Below are positions 2,942 through 10,704 of a stretch of DNA of 10,704 bases, one piece after another. Numbering within the stretch: position 1 is the first letter of the stretch; every line of letters begins with the position of its first letter. Both the position numbers and the translations under genes were made by a program. The stretch is from Candidatus Helarchaeota archaeon (GTDB taxonomy: Archaea; Asgardarchaeota; Lokiarchaeia; Helarchaeales; HEL-GB-A), in the NCBI GenBank assembly GCA_013375405.1, contig JABXJU010000149.1, positions 1 to 10,704 of the forward strand. Reading direction: 5' to 3'. The notes below the pieces were generated by a model that saw only the letters and a program-made list of their open reading frames with translations, was not told the DNA's origin and searched no databases.

Positions 2942-3631
2942 ATGAAATTGGTTATAAAAATCGGAGGTTCCTTACTTTTAGATAAGGAAGGTCAAATTAG
3001 AGTCGCATTAATTACACAATTTGCCAAAAATCTTGAATTGTTATTGAAAGAGGGGCATGAAATTGTTGTAGTTGTAGGTGGGGGGATTGAAGCGAGGAAA
3101 TACATCACCGCAATGCGTGCATTAGGTGCGTCCGAAGGATTTTGTGATGATATTGGAATACGCGTATCACGAGTAAATGCACGGCTATTAATTAGCGCTT
3201 TAAAAGGATTGGTATATCCAATTCCACCTAGAACATTAGAAGATGCACTACAAGCAGCTTCTATCCGAAGACTTGTTGTATTAGGAGGGCTTCAACCAGG
3301 ACAATCTACAAATGCAGTAGCGGCGGTAGTAGCTGAACTCATCGGCGCTAAAATCCTCATCAACGCTACCGACGTTGATGGGATCTATACTGCAGATCCA
3401 AATAAAGATCCTGAAGCTGAGAAATTAGATGAAATCACAACCGCGCAATTTTACAAGCTGATTGATAAACCTGACTCAAATCGCGCAGGACAATATGAAT
3501 TATTTGATCTTTTAGCGTTGAAAATTGTCGAACGATCAAAAATCTATACCCACTTCATCTCTGGGAAAAATCCAGAAAATATTATTAAAGTAATAAAAGG
3601 TGAAAAAATCGGGACCCGTATCATTTTCTAA
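2942..3631 (+). CDS. pyrH: UMP kinase, archaeal type (amino acid kinase family)
   Basis: Phosphorylates UMP to UDP in pyrimidine nucleotide synthesis; cytoplasmic, normally a homohexamer. The 229 residues show the amino acid kinase fold: N-terminal KIGGSLL phosphate loop, VVVGGGIEARKY glycine loop, the GGLQPGQSTNAVAA segment, the nucleotide-binding INATDVDGIYTADP motif and the C-terminal LLALKIVERS and GTRI. This set matches archaeal UMP kinases better than isopentenyl phosphate kinase, which lacks the NATDVDG...LLALK pattern. The ATG is preceded by an AAGGTG-type ribosome binding site and lies 11 bp after the alaS stop. Its last 11 bp overlap the stop end of the convergent nuclease-like gene. 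Confidence 0.95.
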   Translation: MKLVIKIGGSLLLDKEGQIRVALITQFAKNLELLLKEGHEIVVVVGGGIEARKYITAMRALGASEGFCDDIGIRVSRVNARLLISALKGLVYPIPPRTLEDALQAASIRRLVVLGGLQPGQSTNAVAAVVAELIGAKILINATDVDGIYTADPNKDPEAEKLDEITTAQFYKLIDKPDSNRAGQYELFDLLALKIVERSKIYTHFISGKNPENIIKVIKGEKIGTRIIF

Positions 3632-4868
3632 TCTCAAAGTCTTTTAGACGATGAAAGTAATTATATCCTTTTTTCAATAATTTGAAGAAGATTTTAGAGG
3701 CTCTTCGAAATTTAATTAGATTTTTTTGCATCAATTCATCTCCCGCATGTCTTATCCATTGATATTTAATTCTGTTAAATTTCCATCCCGTTACTTCTGC
3801 CATTTCTCTCATAGTCGTTTCCTTTCCTGGTGAAAAAATGGTTAAACCAAGTGCGTCGAAAAAAATACTCGATTTAAAAGTCAATGGTATATAAGAAACA
3901 CCTGTTAGTCCATAGCTGTTCCGTAAATATCCTGTAATTGAAAATTTTTTGTATTTTCCTACTTTCACTCCCCTTAATAATGCTAATCTTACAATTTTTT
4001 CAAGCTCTTCATTTTCTAGATATAGAATCTTCCCCACTTTTATTGGATTTAATATGGGGTCATCTTCAAAACTTTCAGTTATTTCGCTAACATACAGAGG
4101 CCGATAAGAACTTCTGATTCGCCTTTCTATTTTTCTTTCTAAATAATCCTTCTTTTTCCACCACTTCGGGATTTTTATCTTAGAAAGTTCATATTTTTGT
4201 TGTTTATCCTCCGTAGGATGGGAAATGGTCCATTTTAATTTTTCAAATAGCACCTTATAAACCAATTCTTTATCAAAAGATTCAAACCATGATCCTACAA
4301 AACCTAGCTTACCTTTCACTATTTTAAATATATTGAGATTGCATGATTGTCCTAACAATTTATCCAGAACATTCCCTGAATAATCCTCATAGAGTTCTGT
4401 AAATGAATTCTGGTTGATATAATCATCTAGACCCTGAAATCGAAATTCGTAAATTGTATAATTTTTCCCTCTTAATGTGATTCCTTTTTTATGAAAGCTC
4501 TTAGAAAGAGCCCTCATAAAATTTGGAGTCCAATAACAAATCATAGTCGCTTTGTGAGGATTTGAGTAGGATAATTTTACTCCACAAAATCGCGTTGTCA
4601 CCCACAAATTATCTTCCGATTTCAAAAATCTTATCTTTTGAGCATTTGTAAAAGTAAATTCACGCATTTCTTTAAATTCAATCCACAATGCCCCACCCCT
4701 TGGATTATATAATAAAAAGTCTGCTCCTACAACAGATCTTTGCTCTCGTCCCCCTCCCGCTATGAATCGATCTACCTTCCAAACTCCCTCATCTTCTCCT
4801 CTTTTCAGAACAATCTCAGCAAATTTTTTTTCAGCTGGTGATAATTTGGCAGTCCCGAAAAATTCCAT
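3621..4868 (-). CDS. Orphan PD-(D/E)XK nuclease-like protein with C-terminal HTH-like segment
   Basis: I do not recognise the family. With the ATG at 4868 it has 415 residues. Near the N-terminus, GAD (D50) on a strand, then WIEFKEM (E64, K66) about 14 residues later, then Q77 in a helix (NAQKIRFL), gives the D...ExK...Q pattern of PD-(D/E)XK nucleases such as restriction enzymes and Holliday-junction resolvases. The middle is Lys/Trp/Tyr-rich with no motif I can name. Residues about 351-390 (TTMREMAEVTGW then RIKYQWIRHAGDEL) look like a helix-turn-helix. A GTG 45 bp upstream (4913) could extend the protein by 15 residues. I prefer the ATG because a TATA-like element (4901-4907, read on the minus strand) lies about 36 bp before it, leaving only a short leader. 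The gene is AT-rich, faces pyrH and diverges from the zinc-ribbon gene. Nuclease activity is inference. Confidence 0.72.
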   Translation of the reverse strand: MEFFGTAKLSPAEKKFAEIVLKRGEDEGVWKVDRFIAGGGREQRSVVGADFLLYNPRGGALWIEFKEMREFTFTNAQKIRFLKSEDNLWVTTRFCGVKLSYSNPHKATMICYWTPNFMRALSKSFHKKGITLRGKNYTIYEFRFQGLDDYINQNSFTELYEDYSGNVLDKLLGQSCNLNIFKIVKGKLGFVGSWFESFDKELVYKVLFEKLKWTISHPTEDKQQKYELSKIKIPKWWKKKDYLERKIERRIRSSYRPLYVSEITESFEDDPILNPIKVGKILYLENEELEKIVRLALLRGVKVGKYKKFSITGYLRNSYGLTGVSYIPLTFKSSIFFDALGLTIFSPGKETTMREMAEVTGWKFNRIKYQWIRHAGDELMQKNLIKFRRASKIFFKLLKKGYNYFHRLKDFEIRK

Positions 4869-4900
4869 TTTTATAATCAAAATATCTTTTAGAAAACCTC

Positions 4901-4907
4901 TTATAAA
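4901..4907 (-). promoter_or_regulatory. Candidate TATA box of the nuclease-like gene
   Basis: On the minus strand this reads TTTATAA, close to the archaeal TATA consensus. It is about 36 bp upstream of the ATG at 4868, so initiation some 25 bp downstream would give a leader of about 10 nt. No Shine-Dalgarno sequence precedes that ATG, which fits a near-leaderless transcript. Confidence 0.4.
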
Positions 4908-4910
4908 CTC

Positions 4911-4937
4911 CACTGATATTTTTTGAAATATCTAATG
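4911..4937. repeat. Inverted repeat upstream of the nuclease-like gene
   Basis: GATATTT (4915-4921) and AAATATC (4926-4932) form a perfect 7-bp inverted repeat with a 4-nt spacer. Beyond a single unpaired T, CACT (4911-4914) can pair with AATG (4934-4937) with one wobble. It sits just upstream of the candidate TATA box and could be an operator, possibly for the gene's own HTH-like protein. It lacks the paired 3-nt bulges of an intron. Confidence 0.5.
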
Positions 4938-6956: not shown

Positions 6957-7751
6957 TTATTTATAGTATTCTCGTAATTTAGGCGAAATTTCTTGAGCAG
7001 TCTCAATTGCCTCTGATATTTCATCTACCGTGAAAGTTCCTGCACCACCTTTTTGCATGCTGACAATTTCATTTTTTGCGTTTAGAGTTAAAGTAATTCT
7101 ACTATCTAACACTCTTGTCTCGTTAGCATTCGGATCTACAAGTAATGCATTCCCTATTTTTGCGAGAGTTACTGAAACAGGATAATCCATAATTTCCAAG
7201 GGATTTAATTCCTTATTGACCTTTACTTCTCCATCGACAACTTCAATTTTTGGGATTTTTGTTGTACATAACGCCTTTACAGCAGCTAATTCACCCACAT
7301 CAAACATATTTCCATCATAGCTGAGGACATAGAGATCAACAAATATGATAAACACCTTTTTACCAGGGATAATCACCAATGTTTTCTTGTCAATTATATC
7401 GGAATGTCGAATCCCTCGATCAACAACTCTAGCCACTTCTACAGATTCTTCGCCTGGAGGTCCTGATTCAAAATGAGGCGCCGCCATAGGAGATAACTCT
7501 GTATTAACTGTAATTACTCCTGAGTTCGGAGTATCAGGATATGGTGTACCTATAGAAACTTTCACCCCAGCAACGAGCTGTGTTTTACCAAGGAAAGCTC
7601 TAGCTGAACCTTCAGCTTTTGGAATATAATCCGTTTCAATTGAAATCTCCCGAAAATCTTTAAATCCACGACCATCGATTCTTTGTCCTTTTCTGGCTAG
7701 GGCCGAAATATGATTCTTTTCTATATCTGAAATTATTTTATATGAATCCAT
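6957..7751 (-). CDS. rrp42: Exosome subunit Rrp42 (RNase PH-like, non-catalytic)
   Basis: Forms the hexameric ring of the archaeal RNA exosome with Rrp41 in alternation; the ring degrades and tails RNA 3' to 5'. The 264 residues carry the Rrp42 signature: N-terminal GQRIDGRGFKDFR, the GKTQLVAGVKVSIGTPYPDTP segment, the Arg-containing VARVVDRGIRHSDIID stretch that contributes to RNA binding, VDLYVLSYDGNMFD, and a C-terminal helix. It lacks the paired catalytic aspartates of Rrp41, as expected, because Rrp42 supports but does not perform catalysis. The ATG lies 4 bp after the rrp41 stop, indicating translational coupling. Confidence 0.96.
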   Translation of the reverse strand: MDSYKIISDIEKNHISALARKGQRIDGRGFKDFREISIETDYIPKAEGSARAFLGKTQLVAGVKVSIGTPYPDTPNSGVITVNTELSPMAAPHFESGPPGEESVEVARVVDRGIRHSDIIDKKTLVIIPGKKVFIIFVDLYVLSYDGNMFDVGELAAVKALCTTKIPKIEVVDGEVKVNKELNPLEIMDYPVSVTLAKIGNALLVDPNANETRVLDSRITLTLNAKNEIVSMQKGGAGTFTVDEISEAIETAQEISPKLREYYK

Positions 7752-7755
7752 TCAA

Positions 7756-8526
7756 TCACTCTTCCTGTAATTCTTGTTCTTCCTCTTCTTTTGCTGACTG
7801 ATCAATAAATTTCGTGCGGATAGTCTCCTGTTGAAGATTGTAAATCTCTTGCATTCCTTTTATTCCTAAATTTATTGCTTCCATAAATTCAGGTTTACTC
7901 ATTTTTCCATCAAACTGAAGTAGAGTTATTTTGTTACTTTGTGGCATCATTGCTATAGGTAAATCTGCCTGACCTTCTTTATCTTCAATATCATTTAGAT
8001 CCAGGACAATTTGCCCATCAATTTTTCCTACAGCCACAGCAGTTACAAGATCTCTTAGTGCAATACCTGCATCAGCAAGAGCTAAAGACGCAGCACAAAT
8101 ACAAGCACACCTTGTTCCTCCATCTGCAGCTAAGACCTGAATAGTAATATCAATCAAGGTCTTTGGATAATAGGTGACAAAAATTGCCGGTAACAAGGAA
8201 TTGCGAATGACCATTGATAATTCTACTTCTCTTCGACTGGGAGCTGGTGATTTCCGTTCATCTACCGAAAAGGTTGCCATTCGATATAATGTACGGAGAA
8301 CTACTTTGCCTGGATGTGCTAAGTGTCGTGGCTGCACCTTTCTTGGCCCATAAACCCCAGTTACTATCTTATTTCCACCCATTTCAATATAAGCAGAGCC
8401 ATCGCAATTCGGTAAAACACCCATTTTAAGGGAAATAGGTCTTAATTCATCAAACTTCCTTTTATCCATCCTAAATCCCTTATCATCAATTAATTTTTCT
8501 GGTACTTCATATTTAAACAGTGCCAA
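7756..8526 (-). CDS. rrp41: Exosome catalytic subunit Rrp41 (RNase PH family)
   Basis: Phosphorolytic 3'-5' exoribonuclease subunit of the archaeal exosome. The 256 residues show the archaeal Rrp41 pattern: FDELRPISLKMGVL; PFSVDERK-like TFSVDERKSPAPSRRE with RNA/phosphate-contacting arginines; the ADGGTR phosphate loop at 134-139; and the catalytic aspartate pair D182 and D188 in EDKEGQADLP, spaced as in known Rrp41. The tail is highly acidic (EEEEQELQEE). The start is TTG at 8526, chosen because a strong GAGGTGAT ribosome binding site lies a few bases upstream and overlaps the end of rrp4. The overlap suggests coupling with rrp4, though a TTG start may lower initiation. Confidence 0.96.
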   Translation of the reverse strand: MALFKYEVPEKLIDDKGFRMDKRKFDELRPISLKMGVLPNCDGSAYIEMGGNKIVTGVYGPRKVQPRHLAHPGKVVLRTLYRMATFSVDERKSPAPSRREVELSMVIRNSLLPAIFVTYYPKTLIDITIQVLAADGGTRCACICAASLALADAGIALRDLVTAVAVGKIDGQIVLDLNDIEDKEGQADLPIAMMPQSNKITLLQFDGKMSKPEFMEAINLGIKGMQEIYNLQQETIRTKFIDQSAKEEEEQELQEE

Positions 8527-8530
8527 TTAT

Positions 8531-8538
8531 ATCACCTC
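8531..8538 (-). promoter_or_regulatory. Strong ribosome binding site deciding the rrp41 TTG start
   Basis: GAGGTGAT on the minus strand is nearly a full anti-Shine-Dalgarno match, 4 nt before TTG, and overlaps the rrp4 stop codon. It supports the unusual TTG start. Confidence 0.75.
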
Positions 8539-9254
8539 ACGATTTTTTTAATTCTTCATGAATCAAATCTTTTATTCTATCTGTTAGGCCAGAAGTATGA
8601 GATTCCCTCTCAATTTTTCGAATTAATTTGTCAATGAGCAATTCACTCTCGAGGGTTTTTCCACTTACCCATACCCGCCCATTTTGTCCAATCATCAATC
8701 TACAATTTGTTTCAGTTTTTATCAAATTAATCATAGAGCCTTTTCTTCCTATTAATCGGGGAACTTTAGCTGAAATTATATTTATAATTCGTCCCCCTCT
8801 TAATTTGCCTAATCCTCTTCCTCTTAAAGATAAGACTGGATCTCTTGTTCTATTAAAAGCAGTTATTTCTGCTGCTAATATCTCACCAATATCGAAATGT
8901 CTTCGAATATCATCTTTCGTAGGATTAAAAGATCGATCTAAAACTGTAGTTGCATGAAGCGTTGCAGTATATGCAGAATTTATATCAACTTTCCAAGACA
9001 CAATCGTTGTATTTATTATTTTACCGATTACAAGATCTCCCACTTTAGGGATTTACGCTTATCCTTAACTATGATATATACGCTCCCTGAAGGGGAATTA
9101 CTGTTATATAATTATTTTTAATATCAGGTAATCCTACAATAGATGACTTGATTAAATCTTTTACTTTATAAGTACCGTACCCTGCCTTATATTGTCCTTC
9201 GGCAAGTGTCTCTCCAGGTACAACAACTTTCTTTTTCTCAAAAAATACACTCAT
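8537..9254 (-). CDS. rrp4: Exosome RNA-binding cap subunit Rrp4; split by a 25-nt BHB intron
   Basis: Rrp4 caps the exosome ring and binds RNA substrates. Read as complement(join(8537..9052, 9078..9254)), it has 230 residues, the normal family length. Exon 1 (59 codons) is the N-terminal domain: VVVPGETLAEG, GYGTYK, VIPLQGAY. Exon 2 starts IPKVGDLVIG and holds the S1 domain (about 60-138) and the KH domain with its GRKG loop. The ATG at 9254 has GAGGTG 5 nt upstream. In the genomic DNA the first frame stops at TAG two codons after GAY, and the second frame has a TAA just before IPK. A GTG at 9043 in the second frame has no ribosome binding site and would drop the N-terminal domain. Removing the BHB intron restores GAY-IPKVGDLVIG, as expected for the family. 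SBDS ends 39 bp upstream and rrp41 follows immediately. Confidence 0.88.
9053..9077 (-). other. 25-nt bulge-helix-bulge intron in rrp4
   Basis: On the transcribed strand: outer helix AGGGA (9088-9084) with UCCCU (9051-9047), 5 perfect pairs; central helix GCGU (9083-9080) with GCGU (9058-9055), two G-C and two G-U pairs; 3-nt bulges AUA (9079-9077) and AAA (9054-9052). Canonical cleavage after the second base of each bulge removes 9077-9053 and joins GCGTAT to ATCCCT, restoring GAYIPKVG in phase 0. The inner helix is short: TATC (9076-9073) with GATA (9063-9060), plus one unpaired A. This meets the strict hBHBh layout. Removal by the tRNA splicing endonuclease is inferred. Confidence 0.86.
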
Positions 9255-9259
9255 TAAAA

Positions 9260-9265
9260 CACCTC
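9260..9265 (-). promoter_or_regulatory. Ribosome binding site of rrp4
   Basis: GAGGTG on the minus strand, 5 nt before the ATG at 9254. It shows that the N-terminal exon is a genuine translation start rather than a relic. Confidence 0.75.
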
Positions 9266-9293: not shown

Positions 9294-10010
9294 TTAAATT
9301 TTTTTAACTTCTAAACGTCCCTTTGTAAGTTTTTTTAATTGGTCTATGACCTTCGGTTGTACTCCAGCTACCATCTCCGCTAGAGCAATCCATTTTCCAT
9401 CAGGTTGCCATTCTTCTTTGGTAATCGTCCCATTTCGTATTAATATTTGATAAGCTTTTACTTGATATTTCCCAGGTAGTTTTACAGCAAATGACATTTT
9501 TTCCAAACGAATAGGTATTATTGGTTCTAGATCCTTTACAAGATTTTTGACTTGACTTTCCACGTTTTCCCAAGGATCTATTATTACTTTTATTTCTTCT
9601 AAGGCACGTTCAATACGTGTGGGCGGATGTGGAAGTCCTGTCTGTGGATTAATTGCATTATGGGAAATATAAGTAATTATTTGCTTTCGTTTTTCTTCTA
9701 CCATTTTCCGTCTTTGTTCGGTAGTAAGCTGAATTTCTCCTTCTAGAAGAATGTGTTTTGCAACTTCCATGGAATCAAGATCACCAAATACTTTTTGGAT
9801 AGTTTCATCAGGAGCTTTTTTTCCGCGTAGTGCATCCTGAAAAATCGTATACCCCACTAAAATATCCCGAATTTCTACTTCTTTATCGTCGCGAAAATCC
9901 CAAGCTAAATCAGGATTAACTAGGATTTCAAATCTTTCTCCGCTCGTTTCATATCGAGCTATAACTGCGTTGCCTATGCTTACGCGCTTGTCTCCGCGCA
10001 TGCCTACCAT
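9294..10010 (-). CDS. sbds: Ribosome maturation protein SBDS homologue
   Basis: Archaeal orthologue of the Shwachman-Bodian-Diamond syndrome protein (Sdo1 in yeast), which in eukaryotes works with EFL1 to release eIF6 from 60S subunits; archaeal SBDS binds the large subunit. The 238 residues show the N-terminal FYSH domain ([25 protein letters not shown], then [17 protein letters not shown]), the helical middle domain ([43 protein letters not shown]) and the C-terminal ferredoxin-like domain ([15 protein letters not shown], then [20 protein letters not shown]). The ATG at 10010 lies 5 bp after the psmA stop; a second in-frame ATG three codons later is an alternative. It is intact, with no sign of an intron. 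Confidence 0.96.
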
Positions 10011-10015
10011 TCATT

Positions 10016-10704
10016 TCACGAACCGCTATTCTTAACCTTATTATCCTTAACCTTATTATCCTTAACCTTATTATCCTTAACCTTATCGATATATTCTTGC
10101 AGTTCTTTAAGAGAAAGTCGTTCAAATTTTTTGGTGTCTGTTTTGATGACTGCAATTTCAGCTTTAGTGGCGTCTAATTCAGATTCAATTACCTTTTTTA
10201 AGGCCTTTAAAGCTATGACAATGATTTCTTCAATTGGTTTGTTCTCATCATAATCTTTTTCTAATTCTTCACGAACTGTCTGAGCACCTGAACCAATTGC
10301 TTGCGCTCGATATCCCCAAAATGCACCAGAAGGATCTGTCATGAACAATTTGGGTGCATCGTCTACTCCCGCAACTAATAATGACACTCCAAATGGACGA
10401 ACACCTGCATGCTGAGTATAGAGTTGCTTTAAATCACAGATTTTCTTCGTTAACATCGGAATCGAAATACTTTCATTATAATACAGGCGATTAACCTGTG
10501 ATTGAATTCTAGCATTATCTATTAAAACTCGCGCATCAGCAGTCAATCCCGCAATGGCAGCTCCAACATGAGTGTCTATATCAAAGATCTTCTCAACAGA
10601 TTCGGGTTCCTGCAAATTTAAGACCCGTTTTTCAACTGCTAATACAACTCCATCTTTACATCTAATTCCAATTGCAGTTGTTCCTCTTCGAACCGCCTCA
10701 ATTG
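10016..10704 (-). CDS. psmA: 20S proteasome alpha subunit (5' end outside the window)
   Basis: Non-catalytic alpha subunit that forms the outer rings and gate of the 20S proteasome. The gene runs off the right edge; 228 residues are visible, beginning IEAVRRGTTAIGIRCKDGVVLAVEKR, the conserved region just after the missing gating N-terminus. Further signatures are EKIFDIDTHVGAAIAGLTADARVLID, the helix ending LTKKICDLKQLYTQHAGVRPFGVSLL and GSGAQTVREELEK. The lysine in VEKIF may correspond to the pocket lysine used by HbYX activators. The C-terminus is unusual: a VKDNK pentapeptide repeated three times plus a partial copy, then NSGS. An internal TTG near 10615 is not the start, because coding homology continues upstream. 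Confidence 0.95.
   Translation of the reverse strand, partial: IEAVRRGTTAIGIRCKDGVVLAVEKRVLNLQEPESVEKIFDIDTHVGAAIAGLTADARVLIDNARIQSQVNRLYYNESISIPMLTKKICDLKQLYTQHAGVRPFGVSLLVAGVDDAPKLFMTDPSGAFWGYRAQAIGSGAQTVREELEKDYDENKPIEEIIVIALKALKKVIESELDATKAEIAVIKTDTKKFERLSLKELQEYIDKVKDNKVKDNKVKDNKVKNSGS
10031..10086 (-). repeat. 15-bp tandem repeat encoding the PsmA C-terminal tail
   Basis: Three perfect copies of a 15-bp unit (plus strand CTTAACCTTATTATC) at 10031-10075, and an 11-bp partial copy to 10086. The unit is a multiple of three, so each copy adds a VKDNK-type pentapeptide. Perfect identity between copies indicates recent slippage or strong homogenisation. Confidence 0.9.

Follow-up and report, generated by a model that had tools for sequence, protein, structure and literature searches.

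Why does the exosome gene rrp4 of a Helarchaeota archaeon appear as two separate reading frames, and could the short stretch between them be a bulge-helix-bulge (BHB) intron? The window, meaning the whole 10,704-nucleotide stretch of DNA that was analysed, carries on its minus strand one row of genes, psmA, SBDS, rrp4, rrp41, rrp42, L37Ae, Pcc1 and prefoldin genes, and rrp4 is the sole broken gene from psmA to prefoldin. Frames, stops and coordinates proved to be as an earlier note on this DNA had described them: an N-terminal ORF of 61 aa at 9254–9069 and a C-terminal ORF of 168 aa at 9043–8537 starting from GTG, both on the minus strand. The two halves match Rrp4, as had also been claimed, the N-terminal one through Pfam ECR1_N_2 (E 7.9e-14) and the C-terminal one through RRP4_S1 (E 6.7e-07) and KH_6 (E 3.4e-07), with the break at the domain boundary.

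10016–10702, minus strand: psmA (10702-10016), running off the window
9294–10010, minus strand: SBDS (10010-9294)
9260–9265, minus strand: GAGGTG, a Shine-Dalgarno-like run before the rrp4 ATG at 9254
9078–9254, minus strand: rrp4 exon 1, codons 1–59, with the N-terminal ECR1_N domain
9069–9071, minus strand: TAG ending the unspliced rrp4 frame
9053–9077, minus strand: predicted 25-nt BHB intron; corresponding insert at L012:1917–1941 of a relative (below)
9041–9043, minus strand: GTG, start of the C-terminal ORF, without a Shine-Dalgarno-like run just upstream
8537–9052, minus strand: rrp4 exon 2, codons 60–230 and stop, with the S1 and KH domains
7756–8526, minus strand: rrp41 (8526-7756)
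6957–7751, minus strand: rrp42 (7751-6957)

Two other features of the window were recorded. The end of psmA (10016–10155, minus strand) encodes a short tandem repeat, KVKDNKVKDNKVKDNKVKN, and a 430-aa ORF lies at 3621–4913 on the minus strand, flanked by genes for an amino acid kinase and a DUF2116 protein; no Pfam match at E 0.001 was found for this ORF.

When 9077–9053 is taken out, a 230-aa protein containing ...LQGAYIPKVGDLVIG... is obtained. In an alignment with Rrp4 homologues, which had been proposed as a check, its residues 3–227 match solved Rrp4 chains, e.g. 2je6_I. The MFE fold of 9088–9047 is a canonical BHB of −9.9 kcal/mol, in which a 4-bp helix is flanked by two 3-nt bulges and the outer helix lies in the exons; it reproduces exactly the textbook motif that the earlier note had drawn at the junction. 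Two of the four central pairs are G·U.

9084–9088, minus strand: outer helix, 5' strand AGGGA (exon 1), MFE fold
9080–9083, minus strand: central helix, 5' strand GCGU (exon 1), MFE fold
9077–9079, minus strand: 5' bulge AUA; predicted cut 9078/9077
9073–9076, minus strand: inner stem, 5' strand UAUC, MFE fold
9060–9063, minus strand: inner stem, 3' strand GAUA, with the A at 9059 unpaired, MFE fold
9055–9058, minus strand: central helix, 3' strand GCGU (intron), MFE fold; identical in L012
9052–9054, minus strand: 3' bulge AAA; predicted cut 9053/9052
9047–9051, minus strand: outer helix, 3' strand UCCCU (exon 2), MFE fold

The predicted cut after the second base of each bulge, or the equivalent cut after the third, gives TAT ATC (Tyr-Ile), and a cut after the first base gives GCG TAA, a stop. 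As had been asserted, the canonical base-2 cut restores the 230-aa Rrp4 frame, with the conserved Rrp4 segment exactly rejoined. Rfam returned no match in the window at gathering score, and a group I or group II intron was rejected with no Rfam ribozyme core in the window; 25 nt is also too short for either class.

How much weight the fold can bear was gauged from shuffled sequence. Counting BHB-like motifs (5+4 bp, G·U allowed, without an energy filter) on the minus strand gave 152 against 134 ± 11 in 40 shuffles, and 6 against 9.7 ± 3.0 for motifs with a 4-bp inner stem; such loose motifs are common in this AT-rich window, so that the motif by itself is no evidence. At one fixed insert, the same 40 shuffles give an in-register motif at about 2.3e-4 per start-and-length pair, and an in-register motif with inner stem at 1.6e-5. 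With the exons fixed and the insert shuffled, the central helix fell in register in 1.8% of cases and was joined by the inner stem in 0.11%, while the fold energy was unremarkable against such shuffles (z −1.2; 127 of 1000 as low). Because the energy is not exceptional once the exon sequence is fixed, and motifs are common, the fold alone proves little; what is unusual is the exact place and the conservation of the motif, not the motif itself. All five outer pairs can form in only 2 of 107 distinct rrp4 genes without a break at the site, and are present in both intron-bearing DNAs (the window and Hel_GB_A). A chance BHB as the sole explanation was rejected because the frame is restored and the site is conserved.

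Conservation at the DNA level comes from one relative. A scan of genome contigs yielded 187 relatives, from which the best 80 loci were kept; the rrp4 site is open in one frame in 79 of these 80 and interrupted in a single one, that of Candidatus Helarchaeota Hel_GB_A (L012), where a 25-nt insert occupies the same codon boundary and preserves the BHB around a diverged interior. The strands of the outer and central helices and the AAA bulge are the same as in the window; an ungapped comparison of the two inserts gives 17 matching positions out of 25, and 9 out of 17 within the interior. The 42-nt junction of L012 has an MFE fold of −7.0 with the outer and central pairs as in the window, its insert folding without the inner stem. 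Insert DNA thus comprises two sequences, the other inserts being read from proteins. A dN/dS of 0.18 for exon 1 and 0.20 for exon 2 between the window and L012 shows purifying selection on both. Around the site, the conservation of codons is no more than suggestive (9 of 10 codons versus 111 of 172 overall, p 0.075), and the longest run of identical codons does not lie at the site (p 0.53).

Across the class of Hel_GB_A, 78 of 83 genomes have an Rrp4 match and only Hel_GB_A (G001) has the break, its two Rrp4 matches being two pieces of one gene. A second intact rrp4, which the earlier note had named as an observation that would speak against an intron, was not found in the Hel_GB_A assembly, which may be incomplete. 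In the phylum, 219 of 227 genomes have an Rrp4 match; among the best 150 of these 219, one a genome, 149 are open through the site and only Hel_GB_A is broken, so on this sample the break is rare among phylum genomes. No relative was found in plasmid and viral collections. Further candidates were set aside: in G082 and G005 the N-terminal match is absent through a contig end or masked stretches, and the stop within the match of L014 is the end of the gene. The frame break of G054 is at another place and is not the same intron; it lies inside the S1 region (L118:1–751) and may be an error or real.

Proteins extend the picture to a clade of Helarchaeota-like Asgard archaea. In a search with the spliced Rrp4, the 120 matches listed (of 3967) include a set of C-terminal proteins of about 168–171 aa. 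A search with the N-terminal ORF yielded 13 N-halves, the window's included, and a profile search yielded 29 proteins, 24 of them N-terminal halves (P0121–P0144, again with the window's); the other five (P0145–P0149) are not breaks at the rrp4 insert site. All 24 N-halves end at most 10 residues from Gly-Ala-Tyr (GAY), and 17 of them continue GAY-Ile-Ser, as expected from a kept AUAUC start. Six of the 24 (P0127, P0129, P0133, P0134, P0138 and P0141) read through into exon 2, with exactly seven residues from GAY to VNP or VNS in each; this spacing points to an insert of 25 nt whose 3' end is kept, and the P0129 tail is the reading of the Hel_GB_A insert. A change of Ser to Asn before VN would correspond to a change from G·U to A-U in the central helix. 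P0140 and P0137 have tails that do not fit a 25-nt insert and instead fit 24 and 27 nt, respectively, as lengths inferred from protein tails.

The C-terminal side gives the same boundary. In alignment A1, 17 of the 19 rows without an N-terminus begin at the break point: 16 C-half rows, including that of the window (P0002), start at M/V-GD, and P0027 starts a single residue after that point; the starts of P0046 and P0058 lie deeper in the protein. For ten N/C half pairs, including that of the window, an equal-sized longest contig is listed for both halves. The exon-2 tree unites the split rows with the intact P0001 in one clade (100/97), and two changes suffice for the history of the break. P0001 is an intact Rrp4 with the exact junction, nested among split ones and 93% identical to the split P0144 over 60 N-terminal residues. 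The simplest reading would be a single gain in the clade's ancestor followed by one exact loss. Grouping all the split rows in one clade that excludes P0001 was not rejected by an AU test (p 0.18), which leaves the free tree and the 93% identity to P0144 as the basis for a loss in P0001; P0001 is listed from one source (lgn) and represents either exact intron loss or an RNA-derived contig. As with the cbf5 intron of other archaea, the insert sits inside a conserved coding gene and is kept through a lineage, as the 24 N-halves, the 17 of 19 C-half rows and the tree show.

Genes for the putative machinery are present in related genomes. A PF01974 endonuclease occurs in three of three related genomes and RtcB in four of four, and the genomes of L001 and L002 have two endonuclease paralogues. 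One paralogue (L081) has chain 3p1z_B as its best match (E 5.2e-48) and aligns with it ungapped over the KPLGIRKPKNAEF stretch; we take this chain to be from Aeropyrum pernix, and the stretch is presumably the loop associated with relaxed specificity. For the other (L083), the nearest chains are 5x89_A and 1a79_A. In Hel_GB_A, whose assembly may be incomplete, one paralogue was found, and it is of this second kind, not the 3p1z_B-like one. Two different subunits would fit an endonuclease of the (αβ)2 type, which the available portion of PMC6379350 describes as broad in specificity, with one named exception. For 12 of the 19 distinct tRNA genes of Hel_GB_A (L125–L147), a hand count over overlapping loci, ARAGORN predicts introns of 9–58 nt; some of the anticodons it calls seem odd, so the intron placements are rough. 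For three other Asgard genomes, excerpts of PMC11291895 give introns in 92–95% of tRNA genes.

On this evidence we consider 9077–9053 a likely BHB intron in rrp4, with a probability of about 0.92, predicted to be excised by the endonuclease and closed by RtcB to give a 230-residue Rrp4. The tRNA-splicing endonuclease would cut the 25-nt insert out of the rrp4 mRNA, RtcB would then join the exons, and the joined exons would be translated into the full protein; cleavage and ligation of this mRNA are predicted here from the DNA and protein record. The intron proposed in the earlier note thus gains support from the relative's insert, the shared break point, the fixed spacing, purifying selection and the machinery genes.

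Of the other explanations, the one that survives best is that the clade makes Rrp4 as two proteins, an N-terminal domain and an S1–KH protein started at the GTG (9043). The break between domains is where a split could be tolerated, public annotation lists the halves as separate proteins, and the first stop of L012, a TAA just upstream of the GTG, could allow a restart. Such a split would, however, lose the conserved Ile-Pro-Lys between the halves, and it would have to start at a GTG that lacks a Shine-Dalgarno-like run, whereas rrp4 and rrp41 have GAGGTG; it also leaves unexplained both the kept BHB-pairing parts of the insert and the presence of the intact P0001, with its exact junction, among split copies. 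We give it a slim chance. Translational bypassing or frameshifting, which would join the frames without splicing, is fainter still: the direct repeat GCGTA on either side of the insert, with a period of 25 nt, might serve as take-off and landing site, but translation that hops from one GCG to the other would next meet a TAA stop, and the P0140 and P0137 tails suggest inserts of 24 and 27 nt, a different relation between the frames, which splicing would tolerate. An assembly error, a sequencing error or a decaying pseudogene, the first of which had been named beforehand as a way in which the intron could fail, is scarcely credible, for although the window's break is not checkable within its own assembly, the same break recurs in other assemblies with diverged sequence, both exons show low dN/dS (0.18 and 0.20), and no other Rrp4 copy was found in the Hel_GB_A assembly.

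The nearest known parallel is the cbf5 pre-mRNA intron of Crenarchaeota, which the earlier note had also named. PMC2738675 (Yokobori 2009) reports splicing of that intron, cites Watanabe 2002 on it and, in the portion available, describes introns in other archaeal protein genes as predicted, not confirmed. Apart from the cbf5 mRNA, a 2020 paper knew of no additional archaeal BHB intron, and it contributed a 5' UTR substrate of its own (PMC7714728, in the excerpts at hand). Like cbf5 in these sources, rrp4 encodes an RNA-handling protein and would carry a BHB intron in its coding sequence, with the cut (here predicted) between bulge bases 2 and 3, a variable interior and a host endonuclease that would combine two different subunits; a single gain followed by loss in particular lineages, as inferred for rrp4, also matches the cbf5 history in the available text of PMC2738675. 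The differences lie in the gene, in the phylum (Asgard), in a canonical motif where the newly folded cbf5 motifs are, by the same excerpts, mostly unconventional (all but two named cases), and in that splicing is reported for cbf5 and predicted for rrp4. The size of 25 nt, which had been called very small, is indeed below the 36 bp of the cbf5 introns of two Staphylothermus species, but it is not exceptional against the 11 to 175 nt of archaeal tRNA introns (both from the accessible part of PMC2738675). The interruption is not the cbf5 intron itself, since the gene here is rrp4; in Hel_GB_A, the apparent interruption of cbf5 consists of two HMM segments only, with the TruB_N part in an open frame of 338 aa.

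Archaeal tRNA BHB introns share motif kind and size range with the rrp4 insert and differ in that the host RNA here is an mRNA, in which splicing would restore a reading frame and not a tRNA fold. The BHB of HVO_1309 in Haloferax volcanii is, as predicted for rrp4, an mRNA substrate of the splicing endonuclease, but it lies in the 5' UTR and not inside a coding frame (PMC7714728, in the part available). An archaeal virus has putative introns of 12 bp (Peng et al., cited in the available part of PMC2738675), likewise very short and in coding genes; they belong to a viral genome, and their splicing is putative. The literature searched, most subscription papers and all bioRxiv preprints lying outside it, yielded no report of an intron in rrp4 or in Asgard protein genes, in keeping with the earlier note, which knew of none in rrp4. 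Within that literature, no archaeal coding gene other than cbf5 of Crenarchaeota had a confirmed BHB intron.

In eukaryotes, XBP1/HAC1 have a small mRNA intron that is removed by a protein endonuclease and a ligase with no spliceosome; the cut is made by IRE1, not by the tRNA-splicing endonuclease, and is stress-regulated. No homology with rrp4 is implied. A bolder reading is that the rrp4 intron acts as an XBP1-like control switch, tying exosome assembly to tRNA-splicing capacity because Rrp4 would be made only after processing by the endonuclease and RtcB, and that it is the first seen of a hidden group of introns, which gene callers mistake for broken genes; we regard this as unlikely.

Public annotation splits this exosome gene, and in some records turns it into a hypothetical protein (some N-halves) and a truncated Rrp4, some C-halves being named Rrp4 or RNA-binding protein. 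If spliced, rrp4 would belong to a very small set of archaeal protein genes that have a splicing-dependent intron. It would be the second such gene, in another phylum and predicted to work like cbf5. Found in the phylum closest to eukaryotes, a second gene would point to repeated origins, within archaea, of protein-gene splicing by the tRNA enzyme, and to its ability to last throughout a clade. The question of how an mRNA intron is gained from the tRNA-splicing system thereby becomes testable in a second lineage.
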